DNA of 42,909 bases from a virus, in IMG/VR virus record IMGVR_UViG_3300031707_000048, positions 1 through 42,909 of that record; one strand, 5' to 3'. Positions 1 through 42,909 of this stretch are shown piece by piece. The translations under genes and the position numbers were made by a program. The notes beneath the pieces are model-generated. The model saw nothing but the letters and a program-made list of their open reading frames with translations, was not told the DNA's origin and did not search any database. Position 1 is the first letter of the stretch. Each line of letters opens with the position of its first letter.

Positions 1-283
1 CTACTTCCTGCTGCATGCCACCCGTCATCCGGTCCCCCAGCACCACTACTTCATCCGCCATTTTTACCATCTCCAGGCAGCACTCCATTCCGTACTCCCT
101 GTCTATCTCATAGTTGTCCTCGAATGAAATGCTATGGAGGGCGAAATGGGGTACGAGAAACAGCGGCAATTCCTCTCCTCGCTGTTTATACTCCTCTATC
201 AATTTTTGCACTGCCATCTCTACTCTCATCACGTTATCCTTGATGCTGCCCGACAATGGGGCACAAACAAATATATGCTTCAT
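1..283 (-). CDS. DUF7768/DUF4406-like (nucleoside deoxyribosyltransferase-fold) protein, allele A, truncated by window edge
   Basis: This is the first 94 codons of the same gene found complete at 42570-42902. The 3' end is cut off by the window edge. It starts at ATG 283 after AAGGAGAAAGTGAA, so this copy carries the ribosome site that the right-hand copy lacks. The protein opens with FVCAPLSG and later has VVVLGDRMTGGMQ, the two glycine-rich motifs typical of DUF4406/DUF7768 proteins. It differs from the other copy at 21 of the 163 leftmost bases, mostly at third codon positions. I read it as a strain allele at the assembly join, not a second gene. Biochemical function is unknown. Confidence 0.7.
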   Translation of the reverse strand, partial: MKHIFVCAPLSGSIKDNVMRVEMAVQKLIEEYKQRGEELPLFLVPHFALHSISFEDNYEIDREYGMECCLEMVKMADEVVVLGDRMTGGMQQEV

Positions 284-290
284 TTCACTT
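164..290. repeat. 127-bp exact direct repeat, left copy (assembly overlap)
   Basis: These bases are identical to 42783-42909, the last 127 bases of the window. Identity stops exactly one base upstream (G163 against A42782). A length of exactly 127 that ends at the contig end is what a de Bruijn assembler with k=127 leaves on a circular or terminally redundant molecule. It is probably not a biological repeat. Confidence 0.85.
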
Positions 291-606
291 TCTCCTTTCT
301 GTTGTTCACAGACCAACTCATAAAACTTCTGCACATTACTCTCGCCAGATGATCCTCATCTCTGTCCCCCCGCATGAATTTAAATAGGTGGATGAGAAGA
401 TGATTGAGGTGCACACCCACGGGGAGTTTGCGCCAGTTGTTCGCCGGTCTTCCAGTCTGTGCTGTCTCCCACATCACCTTTGCCACTGCCATCATAGCGT
501 CTGGATCGATCAAGTCGAAGCGATACGGTTCCTTAGAGGCAATGCCCCCACCTTTAAATTTTTCCAACTCCTCGCCTTCATGATAAGGATCTTTAGATTT
601 TGTCAT
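280..606 (-). CDS. dATP/dGTP diphosphohydrolase-like protein (DUF5664 / dGTP_diPhyd_N type)
   Basis: A 108-residue protein with the pattern of the phage dATP/dGTP diphosphohydrolase N-terminal (DUF5664-like) family: YRFDLIDPDAMMAVAKVM, a short segment ending NNW, then HLNHLLIHLFKFMRGDRDEDHLARVM. In Z-genome phages, enzymes annotated this way (MazZ-type) hydrolyse dGTP to dGMP, the substrate of PurZ, and may also lower dATP. Here the gene lies two genes downstream of purZ in one leftward operon. Its stop overlaps the next start as ATGA. The start follows GGGAGTAAACAA. Assignment to the family is fairly secure. The exact substrate is inferred from context, and a general phage pyrophosphohydrolase remains possible. 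Confidence 0.65.
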   Translation of the reverse strand: MTKSKDPYHEGEELEKFKGGGIASKEPYRFDLIDPDAMMAVAKVMWETAQTGRPANNWRKLPVGVHLNHLLIHLFKFMRGDRDEDHLARVMCRSFMSWSVNNRKEKVK

Positions 607-642
607 TTGTTTACTCCCACATTTGCTATAGCGGTTTTTTAC

Positions 643-1176
643 TCACATTTCATCTCCAAGGCACGTCCATCCTGGCCTTTGTCTCCTGGCGAATAATTCT
701 ACATATGGACCGATACTTATCCGTTCCACTATTTGATAGAATTCATCTGGTTTGCCACTATGTTTACCCGTATAAGGAGCATCGAATACACTTCTAATAT
801 TTTTGTTTAGCGGCATTGGCATCTTCTTTACTCCAATCAAGCAGGTTTCATGGCTTCCTCTAATTAATAACCCCATACCAAACCAATTCTTGTTCCTGAT
901 GGTCTTCTTTCTCCAAATTAACTCCCCATAAGGACGGAATCCCCAGGCTCTACATACACTCAGTGCCTGTTCCTGCATCGACGCTAATCGCCATAGAAAT
1001 AATAAACAATCCTCACTCATCAATGGCAGTGAGTAATTCTTTATTTCCTCTATACTCATTAATTTATACTGATGATGACTCGCTTGCTTAATCCCCCATC
1101 GTGGACTGGTAGGAGGGGATGGCCAAGGTGGATCCGCCGCAATCACTCTTGCTGGGTGGCCTTTATATTTTTTCAT
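643..1176 (-). CDS. MT-A70 family N6-adenine methyltransferase
   Basis: A 177-residue SAM-dependent methyltransferase of the MT-A70 type. The catalytic DPPW motif is at residues 15-18. The C-terminal half has HSGKPDEFYQIVE followed by ELFARRQRPGWTCLGDE, both typical of phage and bacterial MT-A70 enzymes. These methylate N6 of adenine in DNA or RNA. No target-recognition domain or cognate restriction gene is visible, so it is an orphan enzyme, plausibly for protection against host nucleases or for marking. The start overlaps the end of the upstream HNH gene (ATGA). It is odd in a genome predicted to use 2-aminoadenine, where N6 is still available but the base is not adenine. Confidence 0.85.
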   Translation of the reverse strand: MKKYKGHPARVIAADPPWPSPPTSPRWGIKQASHHQYKLMSIEEIKNYSLPLMSEDCLLFLWRLASMQEQALSVCRAWGFRPYGELIWRKKTIRNKNWFGMGLLIRGSHETCLIGVKKMPMPLNKNIRSVFDAPYTGKHSGKPDEFYQIVERISIGPYVELFARRQRPGWTCLGDEM

Positions 1177-1529
1177 TTATCTGCCCCCGTACTGACCATT
1201 GCTTCATGCTCCCTAATAGCATGACAGTTCCCGCATAATATTTCACATTTTTCTATCTCTTCCAATATTACTCTCCATCCTCTTGCATCCGACATTCGTG
1301 ATACATCTCCACGTTTACTCCCCTTTATATGATGAAAATTCATTACATAGTACGGGAAATAATTTCCACAGCGATCGCATGGAGTGGATCCTTTTACAAA
1401 TTTGATATACTTCTTTATATCTTCCGCAATTCGTTTTCGCCGCTCTTTTATGCGCCTGTTATCACGAGCACGGTTGAGCGAGTGATACATCTTCATATAA
1501 TTTGTGCGGTTTCGTCGCAGTTTGCTCAA
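1173..1529 (-). CDS. HNH endonuclease-like protein
   Basis: A 118-residue protein with a very basic N-terminal 45 residues. It is followed by a zinc-supported HNH core: CDRC at about residues 51-54, NFHHIKG, then EKCEILCGNCHAIREH. The paired CxxC motifs hold the fold and the HH is the catalytic start. Proteins of this size are usually free-standing homing or packaging-associated nucleases. It sits between purZ and the methyltransferase with 4-base overlaps on both sides. It may therefore be a homing gene inserted into the cassette that keeps translational coupling. Biological target unknown. Confidence 0.75.
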   Translation of the reverse strand: MSKLRRNRTNYMKMYHSLNRARDNRRIKERRKRIAEDIKKYIKFVKGSTPCDRCGNYFPYYVMNFHHIKGSKRGDVSRMSDARGWRVILEEIEKCEILCGNCHAIREHEAMVSTGADK

Positions 1530-2596
1530 TCATCCCCTCCGAAATCCACCATATGTTCATGATTAGGACCTGTCCCCCCGTATAATACTGGTACTCCTGT
1601 CTCCTCTTCCAGTCGTTTGATAAATTCTATAGATTTTGTACTTAGTTTATCAACGGAAGTAACGCCAAGGTCATTCCAATTCAAGTAATTAAGGAATTGT
1701 ATACAAAATCCGCTTGGGTTGCAAATTTCTACCATGCGTTTGATTTGACTCATTGAGAATTCGAATACCCGCCTTGGCAGCTTCGTTGTGGTGGTGAGTT
1801 CGGTGAGATCGTGCGGCGCACCGCATCTCTTCCCCACTTCGTCCCACGTTATCTCCTTGCTCGGATACGGCCCGCTCGATCCTGTTCTGTTATTCACCCT
1901 TATCGGATACGGCCTTATCACGGCATACACGTCTCCCAGGTATTTAGGCGGCACTCCCATATCGGCCAGGGCCTGTGCAGGAGTGCAGTTCCTGGAAGTG
2001 CAATAGACTGAGTCAACGCCGTGGAACAGACACAGGTCAAATCCCTGCCCCATCTCGTATAGCACCGTTCCGCCACCTGATAGGAATGAGCGTATAAATT
2101 CTGTGGTATCAAGATACACGAACGGTCTTAATCCAGGGACGGAGCCAGCTAATATTGCTCTTCTCATCAATCTGTCCACTCTTGCTTCCCCTACTCCCTG
2201 CGCTGTGCTCCCAATGCTCGTCATTCCATTCTCTTCCGCCCTCACATGCTCCTGGGTTATGATGGTTGCTCCTCGGTCTATGTGCAGGTTACTCCCGTCG
2301 AACCCCCATCCAATCAACTCTTCTATTTCTCTTAGTAACAATTCTGGCCTTATCACGGATGCGGGTCCCAACATCACCGTAGCGTTAGCGATATCCCTGC
2401 TTCCCGCCACCCCCGCCGGCACGTGGTGCGTTATTAGCTTGCGCCCATCTTTTATTACCGTGTGGCCTGCATTGGGACTAAGATTACCCGCCAGTATTTT
2501 GATGCCGAATTTATCTACAAGAAACGCAGATAATTTGCCCTTCGCCTCCGACCCCGCTTGCCCCCCGAACACGATGTTGAATTTGCCTCTTTTCAC
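1526..2596 (-). CDS. purZ: PurZ, 2-aminoadenylosuccinate synthetase (PurA homologue for Z-DNA)
   Basis: A 356-residue homologue of adenylosuccinate synthetase, closer in length and pattern to the short archaeal PurA form than to the longer bacterial one. The P-loop reads GGQAGSEAKGK where PurA has GxQWGDEGKGK, so the catalytic Asp (Asp13 in E. coli) is Ser. That change defines PurZ, which joins dGMP with aspartate as the first step to dZTP. NAGHT is kept. STAQGVGEARVDRLMRRA, EMGQGFDL and a GPYP segment match other PurA/PurZ blocks. It starts with GTG after AGGAGGTAATGAG. Host PurB and nucleotide kinases would complete the pathway, since no phage copies are seen. Identity is strong from sequence; actual Z incorporation is inferred. 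Confidence 0.88.
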   Translation of the reverse strand: MKRGKFNIVFGGQAGSEAKGKLSAFLVDKFGIKILAGNLSPNAGHTVIKDGRKLITHHVPAGVAGSRDIANATVMLGPASVIRPELLLREIEELIGWGFDGSNLHIDRGATIITQEHVRAEENGMTSIGSTAQGVGEARVDRLMRRAILAGSVPGLRPFVYLDTTEFIRSFLSGGGTVLYEMGQGFDLCLFHGVDSVYCTSRNCTPAQALADMGVPPKYLGDVYAVIRPYPIRVNNRTGSSGPYPSKEITWDEVGKRCGAPHDLTELTTTTKLPRRVFEFSMSQIKRMVEICNPSGFCIQFLNYLNWNDLGVTSVDKLSTKSIEFIKRLEEETGVPVLYGGTGPNHEHMVDFGGDD

Positions 2597-2600
2597 CTCA

Positions 2601-3281
2601 TTACCTCCTCTCTTTTATCGCCTTTATTATCTCCCTCGCTGTGACTCCGCCCACCCCTTCTATTTCTGTCCACTCTTCTTCTTTTGCTTCCATCATCTCC
2701 TTTACGCTCCTGAATCGCTTTTCTACTTCTATACTGCGTCTCAGTCCAATATGCGGCAATTCGCTTGCTATACGGCGTATCAAACTTGGCTGCCCAAGAC
2801 TTAGCCACGCCGCTATCGGAGGCGGCTTGTATATCGCTAAGTGTGATTTGTGATCCTTCCACTTCTTCCCCCACCAATTGTGTAGTATCTGTATAAGATC
2901 CGCCGTCTCACTTATATCTTTTGTCTTCTTTATTATTATTCCTGCTATCACTTCCATCGTCGATAGATAGGCTATTATACCGGCCACTGTGAATCTCCTT
3001 CCTCCTCTATTCATCACCGATTCTCTCCACGTCCCCTCCACCACCAGATATGACCTGTAGTACGCCTGCAGCATTCCAGGTATCTGGTGCCCGCTCAGTC
3101 TTCCCGTCGCTATTGAATTCACCAAATCCCCAATGCGTTTGCGCTCGATTCCTATTTCTACTTTCCCGTCCGGCCCATTCCCTTCGAAGGATACGTCGCC
3201 AAATGGGAGTTCCACCAGGATAGAGTCCGGTATCAGGTCTGCTAACTCCTTGCTTCCCGCACGGTTATCGACGCATATCAT
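2601..3281 (-). CDS. ERCC4-type nuclease with C-terminal helix-hairpin-helix
   Basis: A 226-residue protein. Residues 1-60 form an ERCC4 (XPF/Mus81-like) nuclease core: VDNRAGSKELADLI, a GD near residue 29, and IERKRIGDLVNSI, matching the V/I-ERK-x3-D catalytic signature. The C-terminus carries a helix-hairpin-helix DNA-binding motif, IEGVGGVTAREIIKAIKE. Archaeal and phage proteins of this layout cut branched or flap DNA. Here it sits just upstream of purZ and downstream of a RecA-like ATPase, so a role in recombination or resolving replication intermediates fits. Its start overlaps the previous gene by 17 bases, with only a weak ribosome site. Confidence 0.8.
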   Translation of the reverse strand: MICVDNRAGSKELADLIPDSILVELPFGDVSFEGNGPDGKVEIGIERKRIGDLVNSIATGRLSGHQIPGMLQAYYRSYLVVEGTWRESVMNRGGRRFTVAGIIAYLSTMEVIAGIIIKKTKDISETADLIQILHNWWGKKWKDHKSHLAIYKPPPIAAWLSLGQPSLIRRIASELPHIGLRRSIEVEKRFRSVKEMMEAKEEEWTEIEGVGGVTAREIIKAIKERR

Positions 3282-3513: not shown

Positions 3514-3514
3514 T

Positions 3515-3691
3515 TTATTCCCTTCCCTTCATAATGAGGTATATACGATAGATCCCCCATAATATTATCAAAATTACAATGCCCAGCCACGCCAGAAGAC
3601 AAATTAGCCAAGTTTGGTAGTCCGAAAATTGGGAAACAAATGTCCCATAAAATACCACCAAAACCAAGAATGCCAGGATTACTGGAGCCAT
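3515..3691 (-). CDS. Small membrane protein, 58 aa, two predicted TM segments
   Basis: Reading the gap between the RecA-like gene and the 82-residue gene gives an open frame that exactly fills it, from TAAATG at one end to TAA-A-ATG at the other. The product starts MAPVILAFLVLVVFYGTF and continues with a second hydrophobic stretch, WLICLLAWLGIVILIILWG. It ends in a short basic tail. Two membrane spans with a short loop suggest a small inner-membrane protein. The ribosome site is weak, so coupling to the upstream stop is likely. Function unknown. Confidence 0.6.
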   Translation of the reverse strand: MAPVILAFLVLVVFYGTFVSQFSDYQTWLICLLAWLGIVILIILWGIYRIYLIMKGRE

Positions 3692-4423
3692 TTATTTTTC
3701 CCAATCTTCCGCATCCGTCTGCGGGTACACCTCCGCCGCCAGATGTGCAAAGTCGTTTATTGGCTCTGTCAATTCCATTCCTGCTATACTCATATTTTGC
3801 CGGCAGTTCACCACGGTTAATCCGAATAGCCTCTCCTTCGCTCTGTACCATGTCCTTATATTCACCTGCACCAGATATGCTGTATCGTTGAATCCGCTCC
3901 TTATCATCTTCCCCGTTCCCTTGTCGTTTATATACTGCTCTTTCATCTTATGAATAAGAATTAGATTTTTGTCCGTGTCATACGCCTTTCTTATCAGGTC
4001 CCTGAACTCCGCATTCACGGGTCCATAGTGGTGCGGCAGTACCTGGGTTAGCTTTCCAAACCTTGCCAGCCTTGCCAATTCCCACGCCTCCGTTGCCGTA
4101 TCCACTACCACTGTTCTTATCCATTTATCTGTCAGCGCCGTCAGGAATGTTTCTTTGTACTTTACCCACATCTTTAGCCATTCTGCTGGATCGGTAGAGT
4201 CTCTGTAGTCGAACCCCGCTATATACAACTTTTTCTTTCCTATATAATTATCCACCACCCCTTCCGTTCCAATATCCATGTCCATCAAAGCAACAGGTCC
4301 AGGAGCGCTCAACCCAAACGTGGTCTTTCCTTCCTTGTCCACCGCTTCTACTGCTATGATTAGGCGTTTTGGTTTCTTTTTTACCGGCTCGCTAAATCCT
4401 TTTGGCACAGATGTCGTTGCCAT
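3692..4423 (-). CDS. RecA-like / AAA_24 ATP-binding protein (Sak4-like)
   Basis: A 243-residue P-loop NTPase. The Walker A region is VDKEGKTTFGLSAPGP, a relaxed form with GKTT preserved, followed by LMDMDIG. The Walker B region is RTVVVDTATEAWEL. This arrangement is typical of phage AAA_24 / Sak4-like ATPases used in single-strand annealing or recombination. A longer frame extends to 4543, but ATG 4423 follows GGAGAAGGTGTAAA at proper spacing and directly follows the upstream gene's stop, so I choose it. The ERCC4 nuclease downstream and an SSB-sized protein upstream support a recombination and repair module. The exact partner is unknown. Confidence 0.75.
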   Translation of the reverse strand: MATTSVPKGFSEPVKKKPKRLIIAVEAVDKEGKTTFGLSAPGPVALMDMDIGTEGVVDNYIGKKKLYIAGFDYRDSTDPAEWLKMWVKYKETFLTALTDKWIRTVVVDTATEAWELARLARFGKLTQVLPHHYGPVNAEFRDLIRKAYDTDKNLILIHKMKEQYINDKGTGKMIRSGFNDTAYLVQVNIRTWYRAKERLFGLTVVNCRQNMSIAGMELTEPINDFAHLAAEVYPQTDAEDWEK

Positions 4424-4424
4424 T

Positions 4425-4622
4425 TTACACCTTCTCCTTTCCCAATATCTTTGTTTTATATATAATTTTTCCCACTCCAAACCATCCAGACACTTTTTTG
4501 ATGTATAGGGCATCGGTAAAGATTTGTAACAAAACCAACGCAATATCCTTTTTCATCGGATGAGATGACCAGTTAATCTCATCTTCATCTTTGGTATTTG
4601 AACAATAATAAACACGCCACAC
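4425..4622 (-). CDS. Hypothetical protein, 65 aa, GTG start
   Basis: An open frame ends with TAA one base before the RecA-like start. The best start is GTG 4622, which follows GGGGGAGG at 6-8 bases and lies just past the upstream gene's stop. An ATG 21 bases earlier would place the ribosome site inside the gene. The product is aromatic at the N-terminus and basic at the C-terminus (KIIYKTKILGKEKV). No family recognised. Confidence 0.5.
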   Translation of the reverse strand: MWRVYYCSNTKDEDEINWSSHPMKKDIALVLLQIFTDALYIKKVSGWFGVGKIIYKTKILGKEKV

Positions 4623-4623
4623 T

Positions 4624-4851
4624 TCACACCTCCCCCTTTCCATCTTTCATTCCTTCCCTTTCCTCTTTTGCCATTCTTATCACTTCCCTTATTCCTTTAT
4701 GTACCATACTTAAATTATGTACCAATAGCAATCCTATGCTTATCTCTTTCTCCAGTTTTCTTTCCGTCTCCTCCAATATTGCTATCCCCCCTATTATACT
4801 TCTCCTCTCCTTCTCTGCCTTTTTTTCCCCTCCGGATATATCTCCAGCCAT
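4624..4851 (-). CDS. Small coiled-coil hypothetical protein, 75 aa
   Basis: A Lys/Glu-rich helical protein (EKKAEKERRSIIGGIAILEETERK) that looks like a coiled coil. A strong ribosome site, AAGGAGGTGTGAGAT, precedes ATG 4851. It lies between the OB-sized protein and the GTG-start small gene. No family recognised. Confidence 0.6.
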   Translation of the reverse strand: MAGDISGGEKKAEKERRSIIGGIAILEETERKLEKEISIGLLLVHNLSMVHKGIREVIRMAKEEREGMKDGKGEV

Positions 4852-4912
4852 ATCTCACACCTCCTTCCGCTATGCCTCTCCTGTGCGTCCGACTTATCTT
4901 CCTTTGAAATTT

Positions 4913-4955
4913 GAGGCGGGAGATGCTCCTTTTTTTCGAATCTATCCCCCGCCTC
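4913..4955. repeat. 8-bp inverted repeat in a 112-bp intergenic gap
   Basis: GAGGCGGG (4913-4920) and CCCGCCTC (4948-4955) can pair across a 27-base loop in the gap 4852-4963. No T-run follows on the minus strand, so it is not an obvious terminator. It could be an mRNA structure or chance. The gap holds no convincing gene. Confidence 0.35.
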
Positions 4956-4963
4956 CTGTTTAT

Positions 4964-5743
4964 TTATTTTGAGATCATGCCGCCTTTGAATGTCCACGGT
5001 CCATTGGTAAGGAATTCATCGCTGTACGCCAGCTTCATCATGGCGTTCCTGTCCGGATCCAACTTGTTCTCCGCAAATATCAATCCCGCCAACTTCTTTT
5101 TGTCCAGCTTGGGGTTGGATTCGAGGATGGAGAGAATAGACTCGGTGGTCTTGCCCTCGATGTCATTCTCTGGCTCCTCGGCTGCTTCCTTCCCCTTTCC
5201 CTTCCCTGCTGCTGCCTTCCCTCCTTTGATTCCGGCTGGCATTTTGCTTATACTGTCCACCACCAATATTGTTTCCTCGAACACTCTCCCATCCGCTCTC
5301 GGTGCTTTTACCAGTCCTGGCCTTGCCGGTGCTTTCACTCTCACCATATGGCATTGCAATCCATCCAGCACCGAAATATTATCCGCAATCTTTTCTTTCG
5401 GGAATCCAGCATCCGCTACACTCTTCATCAAGGAGATAAATTTGCTGCTCTTGCTCACACCCTTGGCGCTTCCAATGGCGTTTAGCATCGTTCCGTCCTC
5501 GTTCGGTTCCCATTCCTGTGGACTTCCGGCGCTCCAATACTGGTTCACTTTCTCGTCCTGCCCCTCCACCTCCATCGTTATCCTCAATGCTGGGGTCTCC
5601 GGTGCAGTCCCGTTGTAGTCGAACATCTCGAATCTACATTCCTCCCACGTCACATCCACGTTGTCGAGCAGCCCTCCCCCTTCAATAGCATCGTCGGGGT
5701 TCAGGCTTACTCCTTTCGTCTTCCTTCCTTTGTCCGTTGCCAT
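4964..5743 (-). CDS. Hypothetical replication-module protein, 259 aa (possible ssDNA-binding role)
   Basis: The first ~150 residues look like a beta-rich domain (VTWEECRFEMFDYNG, ALRITMEV, VLDGLQCHMVRV). A Gly/Ala/Lys-rich linker follows at about 172-195 (GGKAAAGKGKGKEAAEEPE), then an acidic-helical C-terminal part. The layout of a beta domain, flexible linker and tail resembles phage single-strand-binding-like proteins, but I see no diagnostic motif. A strong ribosome site (AAAGGAGGAAATAAGAT) precedes the start. It lies downstream of the helicase and iteron region and upstream of the RecA-like ATPase. The role in ssDNA binding is a guess from context. Confidence 0.6.
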   Translation of the reverse strand: MATDKGRKTKGVSLNPDDAIEGGGLLDNVDVTWEECRFEMFDYNGTAPETPALRITMEVEGQDEKVNQYWSAGSPQEWEPNEDGTMLNAIGSAKGVSKSSKFISLMKSVADAGFPKEKIADNISVLDGLQCHMVRVKAPARPGLVKAPRADGRVFEETILVVDSISKMPAGIKGGKAAAGKGKGKEAAEEPENDIEGKTTESILSILESNPKLDKKKLAGLIFAENKLDPDRNAMMKLAYSDEFLTNGPWTFKGGMISK

Positions 5744-5783
5744 ATCTTATTTCCTCCTTTCGGTTTGATTGTTATGGCTGGTT

Positions 5784-5814
5784 GGGACCGCCAGGGACCG
5801 AGACTGGCGGTCCC
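5784..5814. repeat. Perfect 11-bp hairpin upstream of the 259-aa gene
   Basis: GGGACCGCCAG (5784-5794) and CTGGCGGTCCC (5804-5814) form a perfect 11-bp stem with a 9-base loop. It lies about 40 bases before the start of the downstream gene. No T-run follows on either strand. A role as mRNA structure, protein-binding palindrome or part of an origin is possible. Confidence 0.6.
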
Positions 5815-5885
5815 GTTGCGGAAGTGATAGACGCCAGCCGCCGCCCATCACCTATCTTCTTATACTGTCCGTTTCACCTCCCCCC

Positions 5886-5992
5886 TGCAATTCTCTGCAA
5901 TATCCCCGCAATGTCCCTGCAATTTTCAGTCTCGCCGTGATCTCTTGCAATGCAATCTCCCCCTTTTTTAAAGGGGAGATTGCAAGATTGCA
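5886..5992. other. TGCAAT iteron cluster, candidate replication origin or initiator-binding site
   Basis: The 252-bp gap between the helicase and the 259-aa gene carries repeated TGCAAT words. Direct copies start at 5886, 5896, 5907 (CGCAAT), 5918, 5946 and 5951; inverted copies are at 5979-5984 and 5987-5992. The first four are spaced 10, 11 and 11 bp, one helical turn each. Evenly phased short repeats next to a RepA-like helicase gene are the usual sign of a replication origin or an autoregulatory operator. No convincing gene fits here. Confidence 0.55.
5951..5984. repeat. Long hairpin at the helicase stop, carrying iteron words
   Basis: TGCAATCTC pairs with GAGATTGCA, and the inner CCCCTTT pairs with AAAGGGG around a TTT loop with one bulged C. 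It begins 11 bases after the helicase stop codon on the minus strand. No clear T-run follows, so it is a weak terminator candidate. The stem ends are themselves iteron words, which fits an origin structure. Confidence 0.55.
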
Positions 5993-5995
5993 GAC

Positions 5996-6997
5996 CTATT
6001 CCGATTGGCGGAATCCGAGCCACTCCGAACCCGCCTCCGTCAGCCCGCTAATATCGATGAGTCCTCTGGCCCGTGCTCTGTTCAGGAATCCATCGATATC
6101 CTGCCTGGTGACGGATGGTTTCATTATCTTACCGATATGCTCCGATGACATTCCCTCTATGGCGTATCCCACTATTATTCTTAATCTATCATCACCTTTT
6201 ATTGGGGCACTGCACCAGGTTTTGCCCTTAAGTACAAATCTTTTCGGCATGCGGTGCTTAGGCCCGATTAAGGCCCTGAACTTTGTAAAGGTCACGGATA
6301 TGTCTGGCGTGCCATCTGGGACTCCTCTTGTTTTCTCTATTAAAATAGAGCAATCAATACTGTCCTCCAGACTTGAATGTCCCCTGCTGAACCGTCCTAC
6401 TGTCTTTCCGGCGTGATGAATAAAGATAACCGCTATCCCAGCCCGCTTTAGCTCAAGAAAAAATTGGTTTATTGGGGACCAATCCTTTTTTGAATTTTCA
6501 TCGATGCCAGGGGCAAGAGAACTCATATTGTCGAATATGACAAGTTTAAACTTATGGTCTACGGCGAAATCCTTAAATTCCTTTCGCCATCTCGAATTGG
6601 TCAAGCTGGCGATTGGACCGTCAAGTATAGCGTCATTGGGGTAGATGGACAAATTGGGCAGGAGTTTTTTATTGAATGTTCTTATTCGCTCCACGATGTC
6701 GTATACTGCGAGTTCTCCGTCAACATAAAGTACCGAGCGTGGATTGAGGACCTCCCATCTCTCGATATTTGATTTCCCTGTTGCGATCGAAATAGCTATT
6801 GATTGAGCGAACAAAGTCTTGAATGATTCCCTGATCGCAAAGATTTGAGTAATAGACCGCTCCCGTATTGCAGGCTTCATCAGGTAGCGCAGCACGGGGA
6901 ATTTCGTGTCTTCCAGATCATCAAACGGCAATACAACATTGGAGATACTAACCTGCGGCTCATTCTCGGATTCATTCCGCTTCCCTATTAATTCCAT
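5996..6997 (-). CDS. RepA-like / AAA_25 replicative helicase
   Basis: A 333-residue RecA-fold ATPase of the RSF1010 RepA / AAA_25 type. The P-loop region IRESFKTLFAQSIAISIATG matches the relaxed SFKT variant seen in phage members, without the classic first glycines. VLYVDGEL follows, then Walker B LVIFDNMSSLAPG, and IAVIFIHHAGKTVGRFSRG with the HH typical of this family. The C-terminus looks like a winged-helix region. I start at ATG 6997, overlapping the upstream stop and following GGAGGTATCGACTG, not 23 codons earlier. It probably unwinds DNA as a hexamer at the fork, and the iteron cluster lies just downstream. Confidence 0.8.
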   Translation of the reverse strand: MELIGKRNESENEPQVSISNVVLPFDDLEDTKFPVLRYLMKPAIRERSITQIFAIRESFKTLFAQSIAISIATGKSNIERWEVLNPRSVLYVDGELAVYDIVERIRTFNKKLLPNLSIYPNDAILDGPIASLTNSRWRKEFKDFAVDHKFKLVIFDNMSSLAPGIDENSKKDWSPINQFFLELKRAGIAVIFIHHAGKTVGRFSRGHSSLEDSIDCSILIEKTRGVPDGTPDISVTFTKFRALIGPKHRMPKRFVLKGKTWCSAPIKGDDRLRIIVGYAIEGMSSEHIGKIMKPSVTRQDIDGFLNRARARGLIDISGLTEAGSEWLGFRQSE

Positions 6998-7182
6998 CAG
7001 TCGATACCTCCATTGTCCTCTTGCATCACTTTTGGTTGTGTGAGTTTCTCGTGACATCCTTTGCATATGGTGTAATTTTTATTACTCTTCAACCTGTAGC
7101 ACCTTTCCCTGCTGTAGATGTTGCGCTTACACCACATACACTCTCTCCATCTTCTAATTGTGATTCCGATGAACTCTTCCAT
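6997..7182 (-). CDS. Small zinc-binding protein, 61 aa
   Basis: Two CxxC pairs (CMWCKRN at about residues 15-18 and CKGCHEK at about 41-44) predict one zinc ribbon. The start ATG 7182 overlaps the previous TGA and follows AAGGAGAAG. The stop overlaps the helicase start. Such one-ribbon proteins often act as small DNA-binding or adaptor proteins in phage replication operons. No specific function can be assigned. Confidence 0.65.
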   Translation of the reverse strand: MEEFIGITIRRWRECMWCKRNIYSRERCYRLKSNKNYTICKGCHEKLTQPKVMQEDNGGID

Positions 7183-7640
7183 CACTTCTCCTTACGAACT
7201 TCAAGCCCTCTCTTCTTTCCTATTACGATTCCTTTTATCTTTGCCATTCCCTGTTTTATCGCTATATTCACTAACTTTGTGCTTACTTCTTTGAACTCCG
7301 ATGGTACGGCCTTGATGTCCGTCACTTCCCACGTTGTCTTCATGGGGAAGATAAGTTCCCCCACTCCATCTTCTTTCACGCTCTCCGTTCCTTGGTGTTC
7401 CTCTTTTATCCTTTCCCTTATCTTCTCGCTTATCGCCCCCAGCACCTCCAATGGCCCTCTGTACCTCTCATTTATTTCATCCAGCGCTGCCCTCAGTGCC
7501 TCTCCTTCTGCCTTTCTCTTCCCGTCTATCCCGTCTATTTCCTTCATCACGCCGACTATAACCGGCAGTGCCATCACCACCCACTTCTCTCCTTTCGCCT
7601 TCGAACTCAACAATTTCTCTGTCTCTTTTACGTCTTCCAT
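7182..7640 (-). CDS. Conserved phage hypothetical protein, 152 aa, coiled coil
   Basis: The N-terminal two thirds is helical and charged (KAEGEALRAALDEINERYRGPLEVL). The C-terminal part, TTWEVTDIKAVPSEF onward with a GIVI segment, matches the ending of a group of 150-190-residue phage proteins of unknown role found near recombination genes. It lies between the PD-(D/E)XK nuclease and the helicase. It could be a nuclease partner or inhibitor; this is inference from context only. Confidence 0.6.
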   Translation of the reverse strand: MEDVKETEKLLSSKAKGEKWVVMALPVIVGVMKEIDGIDGKRKAEGEALRAALDEINERYRGPLEVLGAISEKIRERIKEEHQGTESVKEDGVGELIFPMKTTWEVTDIKAVPSEFKEVSTKLVNIAIKQGMAKIKGIVIGKKRGLEVRKEK

Positions 7641-7652
7641 CTCATTCCCTCC

Positions 7653-8282
7653 TTATTTTAGTATTAATTTTACTAATGATTTTGCTTCTCTCAGGAACTC
7701 CTCTATGTAATCACCGCTCTCATAGTCCTTCACTCTTAGGTAACCAGGATTCTTCCTCGGCATGTGTACCACTACAGTTCGGTCTACTTTCTCTTTTGCC
7801 TTCTCATTGTATATCTTTTTGTACCCCGCCAGTGCTACCCCTAAGTTGTCATACAGGCTTCCTGTCTTTATGTCAATAATGCTTGGCTTTCTATCCCCTT
7901 TTATCACTCCCACTCCGTCTATCCTTCCCGCTACCCTCAACTTCCTGCTCCATACCACTATCTCCCTTCCTATCCACCGCTCTATATAGTTGTCTGTCCA
8001 GTCAAACCACGCTACCCAGAACGGTATCAATTCCGGATCATCGCTCAACATTACTTCTACTTCTTTCATCTTCCTTGTGTCGTTCAGGCACGTTACCTTA
8101 TGCACTGCGGTCCCGAATGCGCTCGTCTCCTTTGATACTCTACTCGCTTCCTCTTCCCCCACCATTGCCCTCCAGGCGTCCAGCCCTGGATTTCTTATAT
8201 TCGACGCCACCTCCGACACTCTTATATATTCGAGTCCGTCAATAACATATCGGTTGTCTGAGTTGACTTTAATCACGGCCAT
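7653..8282 (-). CDS. PD-(D/E)XK nuclease (RecB/Cas4-like)
   Basis: A 209-residue nuclease-fold protein. FGTAVHKVTC near residue 57 is the motif I region. GRIDGVG and then IIDIKTGS supply the catalytic D and D-x-K (motifs II and III), and AGYKKIYNE occupies the usual QxxxY position. Phage proteins of this layout are exonucleases in RecE/lambda-exo-like recombination or end processing. No iron-sulphur cysteines like those of Cas4 are seen. The start follows AAAGGAAAGAG. It probably works with the RecA-like ATPase of the same operon. Confidence 0.75.
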   Translation of the reverse strand: MAVIKVNSDNRYVIDGLEYIRVSEVASNIRNPGLDAWRAMVGEEEASRVSKETSAFGTAVHKVTCLNDTRKMKEVEVMLSDDPELIPFWVAWFDWTDNYIERWIGREIVVWSRKLRVAGRIDGVGVIKGDRKPSIIDIKTGSLYDNLGVALAGYKKIYNEKAKEKVDRTVVVHMPRKNPGYLRVKDYESGDYIEEFLREAKSLVKLILK

Positions 8283-8294
8283 CTCTTTCCTTTT

Positions 8295-8507
8295 TTATTC
8301 GAGTTTTAGGATTTTTACCAGTTTACCTATTGGTGTGTGTAAGGCTCTTCCCAACGCCACAAGCACCGGCGTTGACGGTCTTCTTTCCCCTCTTAATATG
8401 CGGCTTACATGACTTACTGATACCTTGCATTTTCTTGCTATCTCGGAGCAATTTGTATCGGTGAACTCCAGCGGTCTCGATCTCCGATTTGTATTTTTAT
8501 TATTCAT
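8295..8507 (-). CDS. Cro/CI-type helix-turn-helix regulator, 70 aa
   Basis: A short XRE-family protein: SEIARKCKVSVSHVSRILRGERRPSTPVLVALGRAL is a full helix-turn-helix with the usual following helices. There is no dimerisation or cleavage domain, so it resembles Cro more than CI. ATG 8507 is preferred over GTG 8522 because it lies just past the upstream stop. It is transcribed from the promoter at 8920-8948 behind the HNH gene. It may repress early promoters as infection proceeds; no partner repressor or integrase is visible. Confidence 0.75.
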   Translation of the reverse strand: MNNKNTNRRSRPLEFTDTNCSEIARKCKVSVSHVSRILRGERRPSTPVLVALGRALHTPIGKLVKILKLE

Positions 8508-8508
8508 T

Positions 8509-8913
8509 TTAATTGCTGTCACCTTTTACCTTATGGGGGCATCTTCCGTATATACCAATTGCGAAGTTGCAGTTGTGACACAACACCCTATATTTCTCCA
8601 TATTCGGATAATTATTTCTCCTCAACCATCTGTAAAATTCCCCCCCAGACTTAATTTTATTCTGCCTTCTCCAGGCTTGCCCTCCCCCTTCTATGTGATC
8701 AATAGCCAGAAATTCAATATGCTTTTCCCCGCAGCATGTGCACACAGGTCCCCCAGATCGTTTCATAGCCTCCGCCTTCAATTTCGCATTATACTCTTTT
8801 ACGTAGATAGAATTTCTACTCTTCTCCCGTATTATGGCGCATTTTCTACATATGAGGATCTTCGGGTGAAATTTGTCCACTTTGAATGATTTGCCGCAAT
8901 CTCTACAGATCAT
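8509..8913 (-). CDS. HNH endonuclease-like zinc protein, 134 aa
   Basis: The protein starts CRDCGKSFKVDKFHP, then CRKCA, then CTCCGEKHIEFLAIDH followed by EGGGQ. Later come FYRWLRRNNYP and LCHNCNFAIGIYGRCPH. This is the widespread phage HNH family with paired CxxC zinc ribbons and the IDH..GGG core. The frame is open to 9006, but family members begin at the CRDCG motif, so I choose ATG 8913. That ATG follows GGAGGT with no spacer and sits where transcription from the promoter just upstream would begin, so the mRNA may be leaderless. Confidence 0.75.
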   Translation of the reverse strand: MICRDCGKSFKVDKFHPKILICRKCAIIREKSRNSIYVKEYNAKLKAEAMKRSGGPVCTCCGEKHIEFLAIDHIEGGGQAWRRQNKIKSGGEFYRWLRRNNYPNMEKYRVLCHNCNFAIGIYGRCPHKVKGDSN

Positions 8914-8919
8914 ACCTCC

Positions 8920-8948
8920 ATTATAGCACATCCTGAAAGATCTGTCAA
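8920..8948 (-). promoter_or_regulatory. Consensus sigma-70 promoter P1 (leftward)
   Basis: On the minus strand TTGACA (8948-8943) and TATAAT (8925-8920) are separated by exactly 17 bases, both perfect matches. The spacer ends TGTGC, an extended -10. It lies in the gap after the sigma-region-4-like gene. It should drive the HNH, Cro-like and nuclease genes. Confidence 0.85.
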
Positions 8949-8969
8949 TGCCCGATTTCTTCCAAAACT

Positions 8970-9251
8970 TCAGCCCCGATGCCGATAGCCATATCTCCCC
9001 TTCCATATGTTTTTGAATTTATCCACCGCTTTATTTACCATCAATCTTGCTCCTTCCCTCGTCATCCCGAATACCATTCCTATCTGCTCAAGCGTTGATT
9101 CTTTGCCATATCTCAGGCTGCAATTTCCGACATTGAAGTCATTCACGTAGTATTCGCATTTCTCCACGTCACACAGCTCCTCATCTATACAGCATATCGG
9201 ATATCCTGTTGGCGTGCATTTCACTCCGCACCGCCTGTATTTATTTTTCAT
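8970..9251 (-). CDS. Sigma-factor region 4-like regulator with Cys-rich N-terminus
   Basis: A 93-residue protein. The first ~40 residues hold seven cysteines (CGVKC, CCIDEELC, KCEYY and NCSLR), suggesting a metal site. The second half, STLEQIGMVFGMTREGARLMVNKAVDKF, matches the helix-turn-helix of sigma-70 region 4, which contacts the -35 element or RNA polymerase. A very strong ribosome site, GAGAGGAGGAATAACC, precedes it. There is no region 2, so it cannot be a full sigma factor. It more likely modifies host polymerase or acts as a DNA-binding switch. Regulator is well supported; mechanism is inference. Confidence 0.7.
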   Translation of the reverse strand: MKNKYRRCGVKCTPTGYPICCIDEELCDVEKCEYYVNDFNVGNCSLRYGKESTLEQIGMVFGMTREGARLMVNKAVDKFKNIWKGRYGYRHRG

Positions 9252-9253
9252 GG

Positions 9254-9421
9254 TTATTCCTCCTCTCTGTCGTCTGTCAGACGCCTCGACTCGTTCTCTT
9301 TCGTTAGTTGCTGAGTCCTGCTTCTCCAGTGCTCTATTGCTTTATCTGAATAGAATGGATTGTCCTGATCCAAATCTGGTAGGGATTCTGGCTTGGTTTC
9401 TGCTGCTTTTGTTGCTTTCAC
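9254..9421 (-). CDS. Small acidic hypothetical protein, 55 aa, GTG start
   Basis: Found by reading the gap. GTG 9421 follows CGGAGGGCCGACC, and the frame ends two bases before the next gene. The product is hydrophilic, beginning with a Lys/Ala/Glu-rich stretch, then LPDLDQDNPFYSDKAIEHW and an Arg/Glu-rich tail. No family recognised. An overlapping 42-codon ATG frame has no ribosome site and was not chosen. Confidence 0.55.
   Translation of the reverse strand: MKATKAAETKPESLPDLDQDNPFYSDKAIEHWRSRTQQLTKENESRRLTDDREEE
9271..9283. promoter_or_regulatory. 13-bp palindrome, possible operator
   Basis: CGTCTGTCAGACG is a perfect 6+1+6 palindrome about 20 bases upstream of the regulator start, inside the end of the small GTG-start gene. 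It resembles an operator half-site pair or a short mRNA hairpin near the ribosome site. Unproven. Confidence 0.35.
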
Positions 9422-38928: not shown

Positions 38929-39177
38929 TCACTTCTCCTTTAGTCTTATCTTTTCTCCTATTAGTAATTCTATACACATAATGAGAGCGTCCCCCAACGG
39001 CTGGTTCATTTTCTTTGCTCCCTCCAGTACTTTTCTCACCGTTTCATCCCCCATCAAGATCCCCAATCTCCGTGCGTACGAAGGTGACATCATGATGAGT
39101 ATTACAGCTTCTGCATGCCGTTTCATTTCCTTCTCTTCTTCTTTACTACTCCCACCATTGTCTCCTTTGTTTTTCAT
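38929..39177 (-). CDS. Helical hypothetical protein after the polymerase, 82 aa
   Basis: ATG 39177 overlaps the polymerase stop (ATGA). The product has a charged N-terminus (MKNKGDNGGSSKEEEKEMKR) and a helical remainder (SPSYARRLGILMGDETVRKV; GDALIMCIELLIGEKIRLKE). Translational coupling suggests a link with the polymerase, but no family is recognised. Confidence 0.55.
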   Translation of the reverse strand: MKNKGDNGGSSKEEEKEMKRHAEAVILIMMSPSYARRLGILMGDETVRKVLEGAKKMNQPLGDALIMCIELLIGEKIRLKEK

Positions 39178-42100
39178 CTGCACATTGACCCCCACCGTTT
39201 CCCCGTTTCTACTTTTACAGGAAATGGTATTGATAATTTTGTTACTTCCTCCATGATCTTCTTAATCCCCAATGTTACCTCCTTTATTTTCTTTACTTTT
39301 ATTTCGAAAAGCAGCGAATCGTGGATCTGGATCAACCACCTGATGTCACGGTCTTCCCCTATCTTTCCCCACAGCCTCCTCATTGCTTCTTTAATAATTC
39401 CTTGCGCTCCGCTTTGGATCGGCTGATTTCCAGCCCTCCTCAATCCCTGCTCTCTTATATGGGGGAAGCACGATCGCACTTCCGGTATCAATTCTACTCT
39501 TCCCCACATATCAGTTATATATCCATTTTCTCTCACTTGCCTTCTCAGATCCCCTATATACGTGGCCACTCCCGTGTGAATCTTAAACCACGAGTCCAGG
39601 AATTCCTGGCATCTATCCTCCGTCCACCCCTCCGCTCCTCCCGCCATCAACTCTCTGCTAAGCCCTATAGCTGTGATACTATTGATGACGCCAAACCCCG
39701 TGCGCTTGCTTGGATAGCGGTGCTTCATCTCATCTACATCCTCTTTCCTCTTTATCCCAAATGCTCTCATTGCGGTATCCGTGTGTACGTCTCCCCCTCT
39801 TTTATACACATCCAACATCACTTTGTCCTGGCTGAAATGCGCCATCAATCTCATTTCTATCTGACTATTATGAGTGATTAAACCCTCGGCGATGAAGGTC
39901 TTGGAACTGGTCTGTATGGATACCAATTCACACTTTCCTATCGGCGTCACCGATACCACTCTCGACTTTCCTACTGGTGGTCTTCTTCCCATAAATAACA
40001 TTATAGCCTTATCCAGCAACCTTTGGGGTCTGTATGTTCCCAGGAATCTTGCTATGTCTCTTCTATTCGAAATCCAAATAGATGCTACAGGATGACTATT
40101 TTTAAATCCGCCTCCCTTTCCCATCCACGGATCATGAAATTCATACCCTTTATCTTTCAATAATCCCCCCACAAAGTTTAGCATTATTCCAGGTTTCTGA
40201 GTGAACGTCAGTATAATACCTCTGCCAACCGATATTGACCCTTCACCGTCGAATGCTCCAGCCAGATACCCATCTTCCCATTGGTTCGATTCATCCCACA
40301 CATCTGACGCATTCCATATTTCAAATCTATTTGGAACAAGCTTGCTCGTTTTTATCCATTTATACACGTTGTCTTTACTTCCCCTATTGTCCTTCGCAAG
40401 CCAGGGGTGCTCCCCGCTTGCTATGATACATTTACCATCATCCGTTGCGATTGCATATGAAGGCAACACCAATTTTCTTGTCTTCTCTACTATAGAGGGA
40501 ATCATATGTCTTGGGGTGAAACTTTTCTCACAATTCTCTTCCACTCCCCACAATATTTCACCTTCTTTCAAATCACTTATTGGCTTCCATCTCAAATCCA
40601 TGGTGAGAACCCTGGTATCCGGAGCAAGACAGTAATCGAATGATACCAATTCCCATCCATCTTCCGCCACAAATCCATTACGAATGCGCAGTCCATCCTC
40701 CGTACGGGTAGGCTGGGCCATGAGGTTGGGATCGCTGCTGGCAATGCGGCCTGAATGCGGCACTCTGACAAGGCTAAGTTTTGTGTGAATGCGTCTATCT
40801 TCCCCCACTTTGTTTGGCAGTACGCTTATGTACTTATCCTCCAATGTGTCCGTCCCCCTCCATTCCAGTATCATAGGGACTACTTTATGTTCGTATTTTA
40901 TCTTCTCCAGCGTCTTGTGGTCCGTACTTCCTCCCCATTTCGTCTTATTAATACGTTGCCCAGCCCCCAATTTTAATTTTTTGTACAGAAGCTCCGATAC
41001 CTGCGGGGCGGATGCTGGATTGAACATGGAGTCTTTTGATTTTGGCCCAGGCTTCCATCCGTGCTTCCTTGCCATTGTATTTATCCCATCCCTCAGTATT
41101 ATATTTCTGAGGCTGAATTCTATTTCTAATTCTTTCATATATTCTGCATCAAATTTCATCCCCGCCCCCATCATGCTGCACAGGGCCGGCATTATATCCA
41201 TATCACGTTCAAGCACTTCCCAATTAATTCCAGCGCTGTCTACCATCTTTCGCAATTTGTTGTATATGCGTATGGTAGCGTCAGCGTGTGAGCATGCATA
41301 TTTCACGGCCTTCTGGAACGGAATGGATGAAAGGTCTCCTTTCCCTCCCGTTACCTCTTCGTAATTCTGCACTTTCATGCGGCATAGTTTGTATGCCAGG
41401 GCCTTGAGGGACAGCGGGAGTGTCTGTAATAGGAATGCCATTACCATAGTATCTATCCATCTGGCCGGATGCACCCCCATGCTCCATAGAATAGGCAAAT
41501 CGTAGAGAGCGTTGTGGAGTACCACCATAGTGTCATGCGACAATAGATAACAGGCGAATTCCTGCACTTTCTTCTTATCTTCATATTTTATATATTGCGC
41601 CCATCCTTCTCCAGATGTAACCGTTATTAGATATGGATTATCGCCGTCCAGTGATTCCGTGTCCACGGCCACATATCCTTTTTTCGGACCGAGTACGTAT
41701 GTGTCAAATGGCGTGCATATTGTGGTTCCAGCTATCTTTCCATTGAAATCCCCCTTCTCCAACATCACTTTAGCCGTTTCGAACGCTCCTATTATCCAGC
41801 TCATCCGTGTTGACTCATGAAATTCTATTGCTGGGTGGAAACTCGGCACTATAATTATCCTCTCGTTTAGCTTCCACCTGTGCGGCATTGCGTTCACTGC
41901 TTCCATATCGATGCCATCGCCGAGGAACCATCTCGTCGCCAGTGCCCCCAGCGCCAGTATTACTTTTGGCTTTACCTCTTTTATCTCATCCATCAGTACG
42001 GGGGTAAGCAGCTTGAGATCTTCATCCGTCACTTCCTTGTTCTCCGGCCACCCATACTTCATCACGTTAGTAACGTACACGTTCGCTCTCTCTATCCCGA

Positions 42101-42248
42101 CTATGTACTTGAGGAGATTATTGACCTCTTGGCCTGTTGGCCCGACAAACGGCCTACCACGTTTTAATTCCTGCAGTCCAGGCCCCTCTCCGCACAACAT
42201 CAAATCGCAGGGAACTGGCCCTTCACCAAGTATAAATTTATCATCCAC
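39174..42248 (-). CDS. polA: Family A DNA polymerase (UDG-like + exonuclease + polymerase) interrupted by an intein; candidate DpoZ
   Basis: A 1024-codon precursor. Residues 18-165 resemble a family 4 uracil-DNA glycosylase (CGEGPGLQELKRGRPFVGPT; VPSFHPA) but lack the iron-sulphur cysteine positions. A DEDD exonuclease follows, with VDTES (Asp196, Glu198) and HNALYD. In its third motif, YACSHADA, His321 stands where Pol I has the YxxxD aspartate. The polymerase has motif A DYSQIEMR, split by the intein after Tyr539. The O-helix reads KRTGFGVINS, with Asn-Ser where Pol I has Tyr-Gly, and motif C is IHDSLLFE with Ser replacing the usual Glu. GTG start after AGGAGAGAATAA. With PurZ present it is the likely Z-incorporating polymerase; that specificity is inferred. 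Confidence 0.88.
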   Translation of the reverse strand: MDDKFILGEGPVPCDLMLCGEGPGLQELKRGRPFVGPTGQEVNNLLKYIVGIERANVYVTNVMKYGWPENKEVTDEDLKLLTPVLMDEIKEVKPKVILALGALATRWFLGDGIDMEAVNAMPHRWKLNERIIIVPSFHPAIEFHESTRMSWIIGAFETAKVMLEKGDFNGKIAGTTICTPFDTYVLGPKKGYVAVDTESLDGDNPYLITVTSGEGWAQYIKYEDKKKVQEFACYLLSHDTMVVLHNALYDLPILWSMGVHPARWIDTMVMAFLLQTLPLSLKALAYKLCRMKVQNYEEVTGGKGDLSSIPFQKAVKYACSHADATIRIYNKLRKMVDSAGINWEVLERDMDIMPALCSMMGAGMKFDAEYMKELEIEFSLRNIILRDGINTMARKHGWKPGPKSKDSMFNPASAPQVSELLYKKLKLGAGQRINKTKWGGSTDHKTLEKIKYEHKVVPMILEWRGTDTLEDKYISVLPNKVGEDRRIHTKLSLVRVPHSGRIASSDPNLMAQPTRTEDGLRIRNGFVAEDGWELVSFDYCLAPDTRVLTMDLRWKPISDLKEGEILWGVEENCEKSFTPRHMIPSIVEKTRKLVLPSYAIATDDGKCIIASGEHPWLAKDNRGSKDNVYKWIKTSKLVPNRFEIWNASDVWDESNQWEDGYLAGAFDGEGSISVGRGIILTFTQKPGIMLNFVGGLLKDKGYEFHDPWMGKGGGFKNSHPVASIWISNRRDIARFLGTYRPQRLLDKAIMLFMGRRPPVGKSRVVSVTPIGKCELVSIQTSSKTFIAEGLITHNSQIEMRLMAHFSQDKVMLDVYKRGGDVHTDTAMRAFGIKRKEDVDEMKHRYPSKRTGFGVINSITAIGLSRELMAGGAEGWTEDRCQEFLDSWFKIHTGVATYIGDLRRQVRENGYITDMWGRVELIPEVRSCFPHIREQGLRRAGNQPIQSGAQGIIKEAMRRLWGKIGEDRDIRWLIQIHDSLLFEIKVKKIKEVTLGIKKIMEEVTKLSIPFPVKVETGKRWGSMCR
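39867..40631 (-). mobile_element. Intein with single LAGLIDADG motif inside polymerase motif A
   Basis: The intein is residues 540-794 of the precursor, 255 aa. It begins with Cys540 (block A CLAPDTRVLTMDL). Block B has ASGEHPWL. A LAGLIDADG-type motif, YLAGAFDGEGSI, is at 661-672. The end is block F (VVSVTPIGKCELVSIQT) and block G (GLITHN), with penultimate His and terminal Asn794. Ser795 is the +1 nucleophile and belongs to DYSQIE. Removal restores an unbroken motif A. With only one motif, the homing enzyme would have to dimerise. Until spliced, the polymerase must be inactive. Confidence 0.92.
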
Positions 42249-42326
42249 TTATTCTCTCCTCACCAATCCCACAATGAATATCACGATCATTGCCGCCAGC
42301 AGAAACGATATTATAGCGGCATCCAT
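42249..42326 (-). CDS. Membrane micropeptide, 25 aa
   Basis: ATG 42326 lies about ten bases after AGGTGGGG and just after CGGAG. One hydrophobic span (AAIISFLLAAMIVIFIVGLV) and a short charged tail. It ends directly before the polymerase GTG, so it may be a real microprotein or a coupling leader for the polymerase. Confidence 0.45.
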   Translation of the reverse strand: MDAAIISFLLAAMIVIFIVGLVRRE

Positions 42327-42342
42327 CTCCGTTTGTCCCCAC

Positions 42343-42573
42343 CTACTCCCCGTTATCTCTTCCCCCCACGTTAAAGCTTTGCATATCCATTCCTCCATCA
42401 CGCTCCTCCGTCCTCTTCGCTGGATTCAGTTTTCTCTCCTCAAATAGCGCATTAGCCAATTCCTTTATCAATTGTCTTACATCCTCCGGCTCCAATTTGC
42501 TATCCAGTACGATAAGCCGTATGCAGTGGCATTCTTTATCCACCCGTACAATAAACTTTCTTTCCTCATTCAT
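42343..42573 (-). CDS. Hypothetical protein, 76 aa
   Basis: MNEERKFIVRVDKECHCIRL, then LEPEDVRQLIKELANALFEE and a hydrophilic tail. The first part looks beta, the middle is a helix. The start overlaps the DUF7768-like stop (ATGA), with GGGTGGATTT upstream. No family recognised; it lies within the nucleotide and polymerase operon. Confidence 0.55.
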   Translation of the reverse strand: MNEERKFIVRVDKECHCIRLIVLDSKLEPEDVRQLIKELANALFEERKLNPAKRTEERDGGMDMQSFNVGGRDNGE

Positions 42574-42902
42574 AAATCCACCCGTCTCGTTATTGGCCTA
42601 TCCCGCATCCACGCTTCCTCCACTTCCCGTTGCATACCACCCGTCATCCGGTCCCCCAGCACTACCACTTCATCCGCTATTCTTATTATCTCCAGGCAGC
42701 ACTGCATTCCATATTCCCTATCTATCTCATAATTTTCGTCGAATGAAATGCCGTGAAGGGCGAAATGGGGTACGAGAAACAACGGCAATTCCTCTCCTCG
42801 CTGTTTATACTCCTCTATCAATTTTTGCACTGCCATCTCTACTCTCATCACGTTATCCTTGATGCTGCCCGACAATGGGGCACAAACAAATATATGCTTC
42901 AT
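42570..42902 (-). CDS. DUF7768/DUF4406-like (nucleoside deoxyribosyltransferase-fold) protein, allele B, complete
   Basis: A 110-residue protein: IFVCAPLSGSIKDNVMR at the N-terminus, PLFLVPHFALHGISFDENYE, EYGMQCCLEIIRIADEVVVL and GDRMTGGMQREVEEAWMRD. These are the motifs of DUF7768/DUF4406 proteins, which share the fold of nucleoside deoxyribosyltransferases and 5'-deoxynucleotide N-glycosidases. The gene sits between the diphosphohydrolase-like gene and the polymerase. It may cleave or exchange nucleotides in the altered pool, but members of this family have no proven activity that I know. Its ribosome site is visible only in the left copy. Confidence 0.7.
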   Translation of the reverse strand: MKHIFVCAPLSGSIKDNVMRVEMAVQKLIEEYKQRGEELPLFLVPHFALHGISFDENYEIDREYGMQCCLEIIRIADEVVVLGDRMTGGMQREVEEAWMRDRPITRRVDL

Positions 42903-42909
42903 TTCACTT
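42783..42909. repeat. 127-bp exact direct repeat, right copy (assembly overlap)
   Basis: Identical to 164-290. See the left copy: it marks the closure of the circular map, giving a unit length of 42,619 bp. The 163 bases before it are a second allele of the same locus. Confidence 0.85.

Follow-up and report, generated by a model that had tools for sequence, protein, structure and literature searches.

We analysed a viral genome of 42,909 nucleotides (IMG/VR record IMGVR_UViG_3300031707_000048, positions 1 to 42,909; hereafter the window), focusing on a leftward gene cassette that is divided between its two ends. The cassette is probably an operon of an uncultured tailed phage by which 2-aminoadenine (Z) would replace adenine throughout the DNA, and synthesis of Z-DNA by the phage appears highly likely. 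The best reading is that of a new Z-phage lineage, in which DUF5664 and DUF7768 take the place of DatZ; the presence of Z in the DNA, the substrates of the enzymes and the preference of the polymerase for Z over A are predicted. When the ends are joined, the gene order is PurZ, HNH, MT-A70, DUF5664, DUF7768, a 76-aa protein, a 50-aa membrane protein and the polymerase, and neighbours mostly overlap by 4 nt or abut, as expected of a single operon. An earlier reading made from the letters of the window (the sequence-only reading) had listed these genes, with the left part of the operon at 1-2596, and all of them were found in their places. Its proposal of a Z cassette also survived our sequence tests, namely the active site and clade of PurZ, the presence of a dATP/dGTP-hydrolysing family and the retention of the cluster in relatives. 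The features that carry the argument are the following.

1526..2596, minus strand: purZ, predicted succino-2-amino-deoxyadenylate synthase (phrog_1211, 9e-63; Adenylsucc_synt, 4e-38; active site; tree)
280..606, minus strand: DUF5664 / dGTP_diPhyd_N, predicted dATP/dGTP diphosphohydrolase (PF18909, 5e-11, 42.8 bits, cut-off 27)
42570..42902, minus strand: DUF7768 of NDT/DNPH1 fold, predicted dAMP N-glycosidase with a DmtZ-like role (PF24963, 1e-14; structure model; Foldseek; fusion)
39174..42248, minus strand: DNA polymerase, UDG(4-150)-exo(189-336)-PolA plus intein, 1024 aa, 769 aa after splicing
41799..42239, minus strand: family-4 uracil-DNA glycosylase (UDG)-like N-terminal domain of the polymerase (NF040953, 9e-30, and TIGR00758, 3e-29, both below curated cut-offs; PF03167, 1e-18)
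39867..40631, minus strand: intein of 255 aa, C...HN|S, residues 540-794 of the polymerase (NF038136, 1e-11; comparison with the relative L002)
39681..39683, minus strand: codon of helix-O Asn856, which is Tyr in most PolA and Phe in known DpoZ (polymerase alignment)

The sequence-only reading had held that the operon is split by the contig ends and closes when these are joined, which is shown by two observations. The final 127 bases of the window are identical to positions 164-290, and this repeat is as long as a vertex of a k=127 assembly. Furthermore, in an independent IMG/VR contig, L001, the sequence of window 1-9265 (99.8% identity) is joined across the junction to that of window 42430-42909 (96.5%). 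The window ends join, and the phage genome maps as a circle of ~42,619 bp. Two features belong to this junction.

42783..42909, no strand: terminal repeat of 127 bp, identical to 164-290, an assembly overlap closing the circle
about 2..283, minus strand: second allele of the DUF7768 gene, its 3' end cut by the contig end (open reading frame (ORF) and end repeat)

Behind the repeat, bases 1-163 and 42620-42782 are identical at 142 of 163 positions and are two variant arms (alleles) of one region. Both a repeat arising by chance and a DUF7768 gene duplicated in tandem were rejected, since L001 has a single copy that continues without a break through the junction, so that two alleles of one gene fit best. 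The left-end allele is closer to that of L001 than the right-end copy is. In L001, the DUF5664 stop overlaps the DUF7768 start by four bases, as expected within one operon. Strain variation is seen around the junction, where the 76-aa ORF stops after 50 codons in L001.

As for PurZ, the window protein carries Ser at the position of PurA Asp13 (GGQAGSEAKG), and the PurZ-type residues Ser131, Cys204 and Thr273. At position 308, where PurA and PurZ0 have Asp, it has Asn like the ATP-using phiVC8 enzyme. Compared with the dGMP-pocket residues of S-2L PurZ (PMC8342488), pocket and loop differ at just two of the listed residues: 21, which makes contact through its backbone alone, and 275 in the loop, where V is replaced by T. 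In a tree of 79 rows with Shimodaira-Hasegawa-like approximate likelihood ratio test (SH-aLRT) supports, all Ser-type enzymes split from PurA (support 100). The window protein belongs to a 20-member lineage (99) nested in a 48-member clade (99) together with phiVC8, S-2L and SH-Ab 15497, the very clustering by which the sequence-only reading had wished to see PurZ judged. PurA of E. coli and P. horikoshii fall outside this clade, and PurZ0 of Wayne, Ghobes and Galactica are placed elsewhere.

It could be supposed that the protein is instead PurA-like and raises the normal production of dATP/ATP from IMP, with generic pool enzymes as neighbours. The short PurA model PRK04293 indeed scores slightly above the phage PurZ model (208 vs 190 bits), and Ser-type PurA-like proteins are encoded by many bacterial and archaeal genomes. 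However, as the two profiles match about equally, their scores do not decide the matter, while the active site does: Asp13 of PurA is lost and the PurZ-type residues are present. In addition, the protein groups with PurZ apart from PurA, and its gene travels with a dATP-destroying enzyme family. Housekeeping PurA identity was rejected by active site and tree, and the supposition is most improbable; judged by these features, the window protein is a genuine relative of phage PurZ. Ser13 as the sole marker of Z was likewise rejected, as fetched cellular loci carry it too.

The sequence-only reading had noticed no DatZ-like HD phosphohydrolase, and this was borne out: searches of the window with the HD profiles PF01966 and PF13023 and with a profile built from six known DatZ proteins gave no match, nor did phiVC8 DatZ match anything in 17 contigs of the lineage. 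Depletion of dATP by another enzyme, as then supposed, now has a concrete candidate in DUF5664 together with the DNPH1-like DUF7768, which are fused in two relatives (L008 and L009) into one protein, both domains being above Pfam cut-offs. A precedent is offered by PurZ0 phages, whose DUF5664 hydrolyses dATP, dGTP and dUTP to monophosphates, and in which dAMP is hydrolysed by DmtZ, an NDT-like protein also able to pass deoxyribose-5-phosphate on to the Z base; DmtZ, which is fused to DutZ in phage Wayne, was reported from the PurZ0 group, and DatZ from the majority of PurZ phages (PMC12884076, 2026). The AlphaFold2 model of DUF7768 (predicted local distance difference test, pLDDT, 89.7) found as best PDB matches in Foldseek NDT of Chroococcidiopsis (template modelling score ~0.7) and human DNPH1 (~0.6), with probability 1.0 and E ~0.002. 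Its E93 (GGMQREVEEA) aligns with the catalytic Glu103 of Ghobes DmtZ and is invariant in six rows. From fold, glutamate and fusion, a DmtZ-like role is predicted for DUF7768, although it is not DmtZ by sequence; on balance we favour its action as a dAMP hydrolase. No paper on DUF7768 turned up in the literature searched, and the prediction would supply a function for this domain.

The gene slot before the polymerase was compared in 15 PurZ relatives, including the window, for which the polymerase region was on hand. It was occupied by an NDT-fold gene in ten (the assignment in G002 being weak, E 0.0016) and by an HD-like gene in five, never by both and never by neither. The slot was filled by one or the other next to 19/19 Asn-type polymerases and 2/28 others, and its state changed two or three times on the trees. 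This pattern suggests one function served by different enzymes. The HD-like family (HDx, A6; for example L003 1306-1905) has the motif GCHQ..HP..HDWGYWG..HSR..DK with invariant H..HD..H..D positions; it gave no Pfam match, no DatZ similarity and no significant fold match (pLDDT 73). Its place in the slot as proof of a DatZ-type function is weakened by these results and by its occurrence in contigs without detectable PurZ (see below).

A dedicated Z-phage PolA had been claimed as well. A family A polymerase is indeed encoded in the operon, but it lies in neither known DpoZ clade, and it has two features that had gone unremarked, a family-4 UDG domain at its N-terminus and, in motif A, an intein. 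The intein sits exactly between DY and SQIE of PolA motif A, where the polymerase of L002 has none at that column. Its hallmarks, Cys1, C-terminal His-Asn, +1 Ser and precise insertion in a conserved host motif, predict splicing, and it is 37% identical over its full length to mycobacteriophage terminase inteins. Inserts with intein-like ends were observed at the identical motif A site in the related phages L348, L350 and L360, in which PurZ was not found or not tested.

The only change common to both DpoZ clades is Phe in place of an otherwise strictly conserved helix-O Tyr (PMC8599892). All 13 polymerases of the window lineage have Asn here and not the DpoZ-type Phe, and the UDG-PolA of MW202455 and LysYB1 have Tyr. 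We fetched 79 UDG-PolA loci and tested PurZ presence on the longer contigs. Asn occurred in 15/15 PurZ-positive contigs vs 1/15 PurZ-negative ones (Fisher p 2e-7, uncorrected for kinship); the single PurZ-negative contig with Asn was L293, a 20.8-kb fragment, and the other 14 had Tyr or Met. Met, present in five sequences, was counted as an exception. PurZ presence and the helix-O residue each change about five times on the tree. Three polymerase lineages linked to PurZ now have an altered helix-O position (Phe, Phe, Asn), and sisters without PurZ have Tyr there, a pattern by which the open question of a Z-over-A preference of DpoZ becomes testable with matched natural pairs. The polymerase is a separate UDG-PolA lineage, tied to PurZ by gene association and by a co-varying residue, and we lean slightly towards its being Z-selective.

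According to the mechanism that we propose, DUF5664 would cut dATP and dGTP to dAMP and dGMP, and PurZ would join dGMP to aspartate with (d)ATP, after which host PurB and host kinases would complete dZTP. DUF7768, replacing DatZ, would cleave dAMP to adenine and deoxyribose-5-phosphate, barring dATP from being formed again, and the spliced UDG-exo-PolA would copy the genome with dZTP. Taken as a whole, this might be a third way of arriving at a Z genome, evolved independently of the others, with a Z-adapted UDG-exo-PolA (helix-O Tyr-to-Asn), a DUF5664/DUF7768 eraser without DatZ, and replication dependent on the intein leaving the active site; we put this tentative proposal just short of an even chance.

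Several observations weigh against a Z-DNA operon of this kind. PurZ reaches 190.5 bits against the cut-off of 300 of NCBIfam NF038379, a strict, exception-level model, and Ser at the Asp13 site is shared by PurA-like proteins of cells, for which production of Z is not known. DUF5664 and NDT-fold genes are also present in phages outside the PurZ set, and HDx occurs in some 20 further phage contigs in which no PurZ was detected. DUF7768 is without two of the three triad residues of DmtZ (Phe5 for Tyr6, Cys69 for Asn77), the first position being Phe in the window copy and Tyr in L002, L008 and L009, and the second Cys in all six aligned copies; Asp12 of DmtZ is not kept either (Ser11). The hhalign comparison of DUF7768 with DmtZ was in register with a probability of only 30%, and for this reason the case is carried by the fold, the glutamate and the fusion. 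The polymerase falls outside DpoZ, with 68.2 and 36.8 bits against cut-offs of 500 and 350 for NCBIfam NF038380 and NF038381. PurZ loci L058, L078 and L079 with UDG-PolA keep helix-O Tyr, the contigs counted as PurZ-negative may be incomplete, and with kinship removed only three independent supported pairs are left, of which 3/3 agree (p 0.25, too few for significance).

Some of these points, together with the lack of a detected DatZ in the window, would also fit partial replacement, in which PurZ makes dZTP and an unselective polymerase, in no proven DpoZ clade, produces mixed A/Z DNA, the incomplete triad of DUF7768 pointing the same way. Nevertheless, the NDT/HD slot by the polymerase is always filled in PurZ relatives and the helix-O residue tracks PurZ, and we regard partial replacement as unlikely.

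The remaining members of the cluster, and its conserved partners, are listed here.

1173..1529, minus strand: HNH endonuclease between purZ and MT-A70, accessory (phrog_3106, 4e-23)
643..1176, minus strand: MT-A70 methyltransferase with DPPW motif, accessory (PF05063, 2e-22; close homologue downstream of PurZ in L082)
42343..42573, minus strand: 76-aa ORF, shorter in L001 (ORF list)
42249..42401, minus strand: 50-aa membrane ORF immediately before the polymerase (ORF; weak PF04226, below cut-off)
2601..3281, minus strand: ERCC4/XPF-HhH nuclease, conserved partner of the UDG-PolA module (PF02732, 1e-11; kept in relatives)
3692..4543, minus strand: AAA_24/Sak4-like protein, conserved partner (PF13479, 8e-11; phrog_124; kept in relatives)

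The relative L002 carries AAA24-ERCC4-PurZ-DUF5664-DUF7768-UDG::PolA on a single contig, and L253, from a different metagenome, represents the same genome (99.4%) and agrees over its covered part. As members of this cluster, HNH, MT-A70 and the 76-aa and membrane ORFs were observed in no phage but that of the window and L001; in the clusters of L002, L008 and L009 neither MT-A70 nor HNH was detected, and these two can be taken as accessory genes. This bears on another explanation, a final base that is not plain Z because MT-A70 adds a methyl group at N6 of 2-aminoadenine or because DUF7768 exchanges the base. The DPPW-motif MT-A70 inside the operon, its close homologue downstream of PurZ in the distant L082 and the transfer activity of DmtZ mentioned above would agree with such a purine. 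Still, MT-A70 enzymes usually act at specific DNA sites, and with their accessory standing in this cluster a further modified purine is quite improbable. The MT-A70s of L082 (8107-8646) and the window (643-1176) are closely similar and both lie downstream of PurZ in distant phages; an enzyme of this type could act on 2-aminoadenine in DNA.

Other arrangements were encountered among the fetched loci. In L098 (4037-8279, Pseudomonas sp. TH43), L100, L103 and many cellular loci from bacteria and archaea, a Ser-type PurZ-like enzyme is fused to an N-terminal P-loop kinase (AAA_18), which could represent cellular 2-aminoadenine chemistry. By appearance, no search having been made, we take the neighbours in L098 to be an ImmA/IrrE-plus-macro-domain protein, a DarT-like protein and a second P-loop kinase, giving the locus an island- or defence-like look. 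The PurZ of one relative (L311, 8453-10009) contains an active-site intein adjoining the equivalents of Tyr203/Cys204, and in L314 (3009-4232) a distant Ser-type PurZ-like gene lies beside ERCC4 and a UDG-PolA whose helix-O Tyr position is apparently Thr. In another PurZ lineage (L078 941-1822, L079 1116-2006), a protein that joins sigma-70 region 2 with a DUF4406/DUF7768-like domain is encoded immediately upstream of UDG-PolA.

Among the Z phages known so far, two polymerase clades have been described, and the dATP eraser was given as DatZ or as DutZ/DmtZ. The window phage resembles phiVC8, S-2L and SH-Ab 15497 in having a PurZ of the same clade and active site, accompanied by a dNTP diphosphohydrolase and, S-2L excepted, a PolA polymerase. 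It differs from them in that neither DatZ nor DUF550/MazZ was found, DUF5664 stands alone and DUF7768 is present. Like the DpoZ of phiVC8-like and Wayne-like phages, its polymerase combines a 3'-5' exonuclease with PolA, and the normally conserved helix-O Tyr is changed in all three lineages; unlike them, it has Asn instead of Phe, an N-terminal UDG domain and an intein, and it is not a DpoZ of the phiVC8 type. The UDG-exo-PolA domain order is shared with MW202455 and Lysinibacillus phage LysYB1, whereas in these two the helix-O Tyr is retained and the regions read contained no PurZ. As for PurZ0 phages (Arthrobacter phage Wayne, Gordonia phage Ghobes; DUF5664-1, DutZ, DmtZ), DatZ-free removal of dATP by a diphosphohydrolase and an NDT-fold protein, separate or fused, would be common to both. 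However, the synthase of the window is PurZ-type and not PurZ0, its NDT-fold protein is DUF7768, and the fusion partner in the lineage is DUF5664 and not a dUTPase; the Ghobes dUTPase-like protein and the Wayne fusion had no match in the lineage contigs. The novelty lies in the joint occurrence of PurZ in the absence of DatZ, of an eraser made up of DUF5664 and DUF7768, and of a UDG-PolA that bears a helix-O change of its own. A lineage that keeps PurZ while its polymerase and eraser are exchanged would show what a Z genome needs and what is replaceable.

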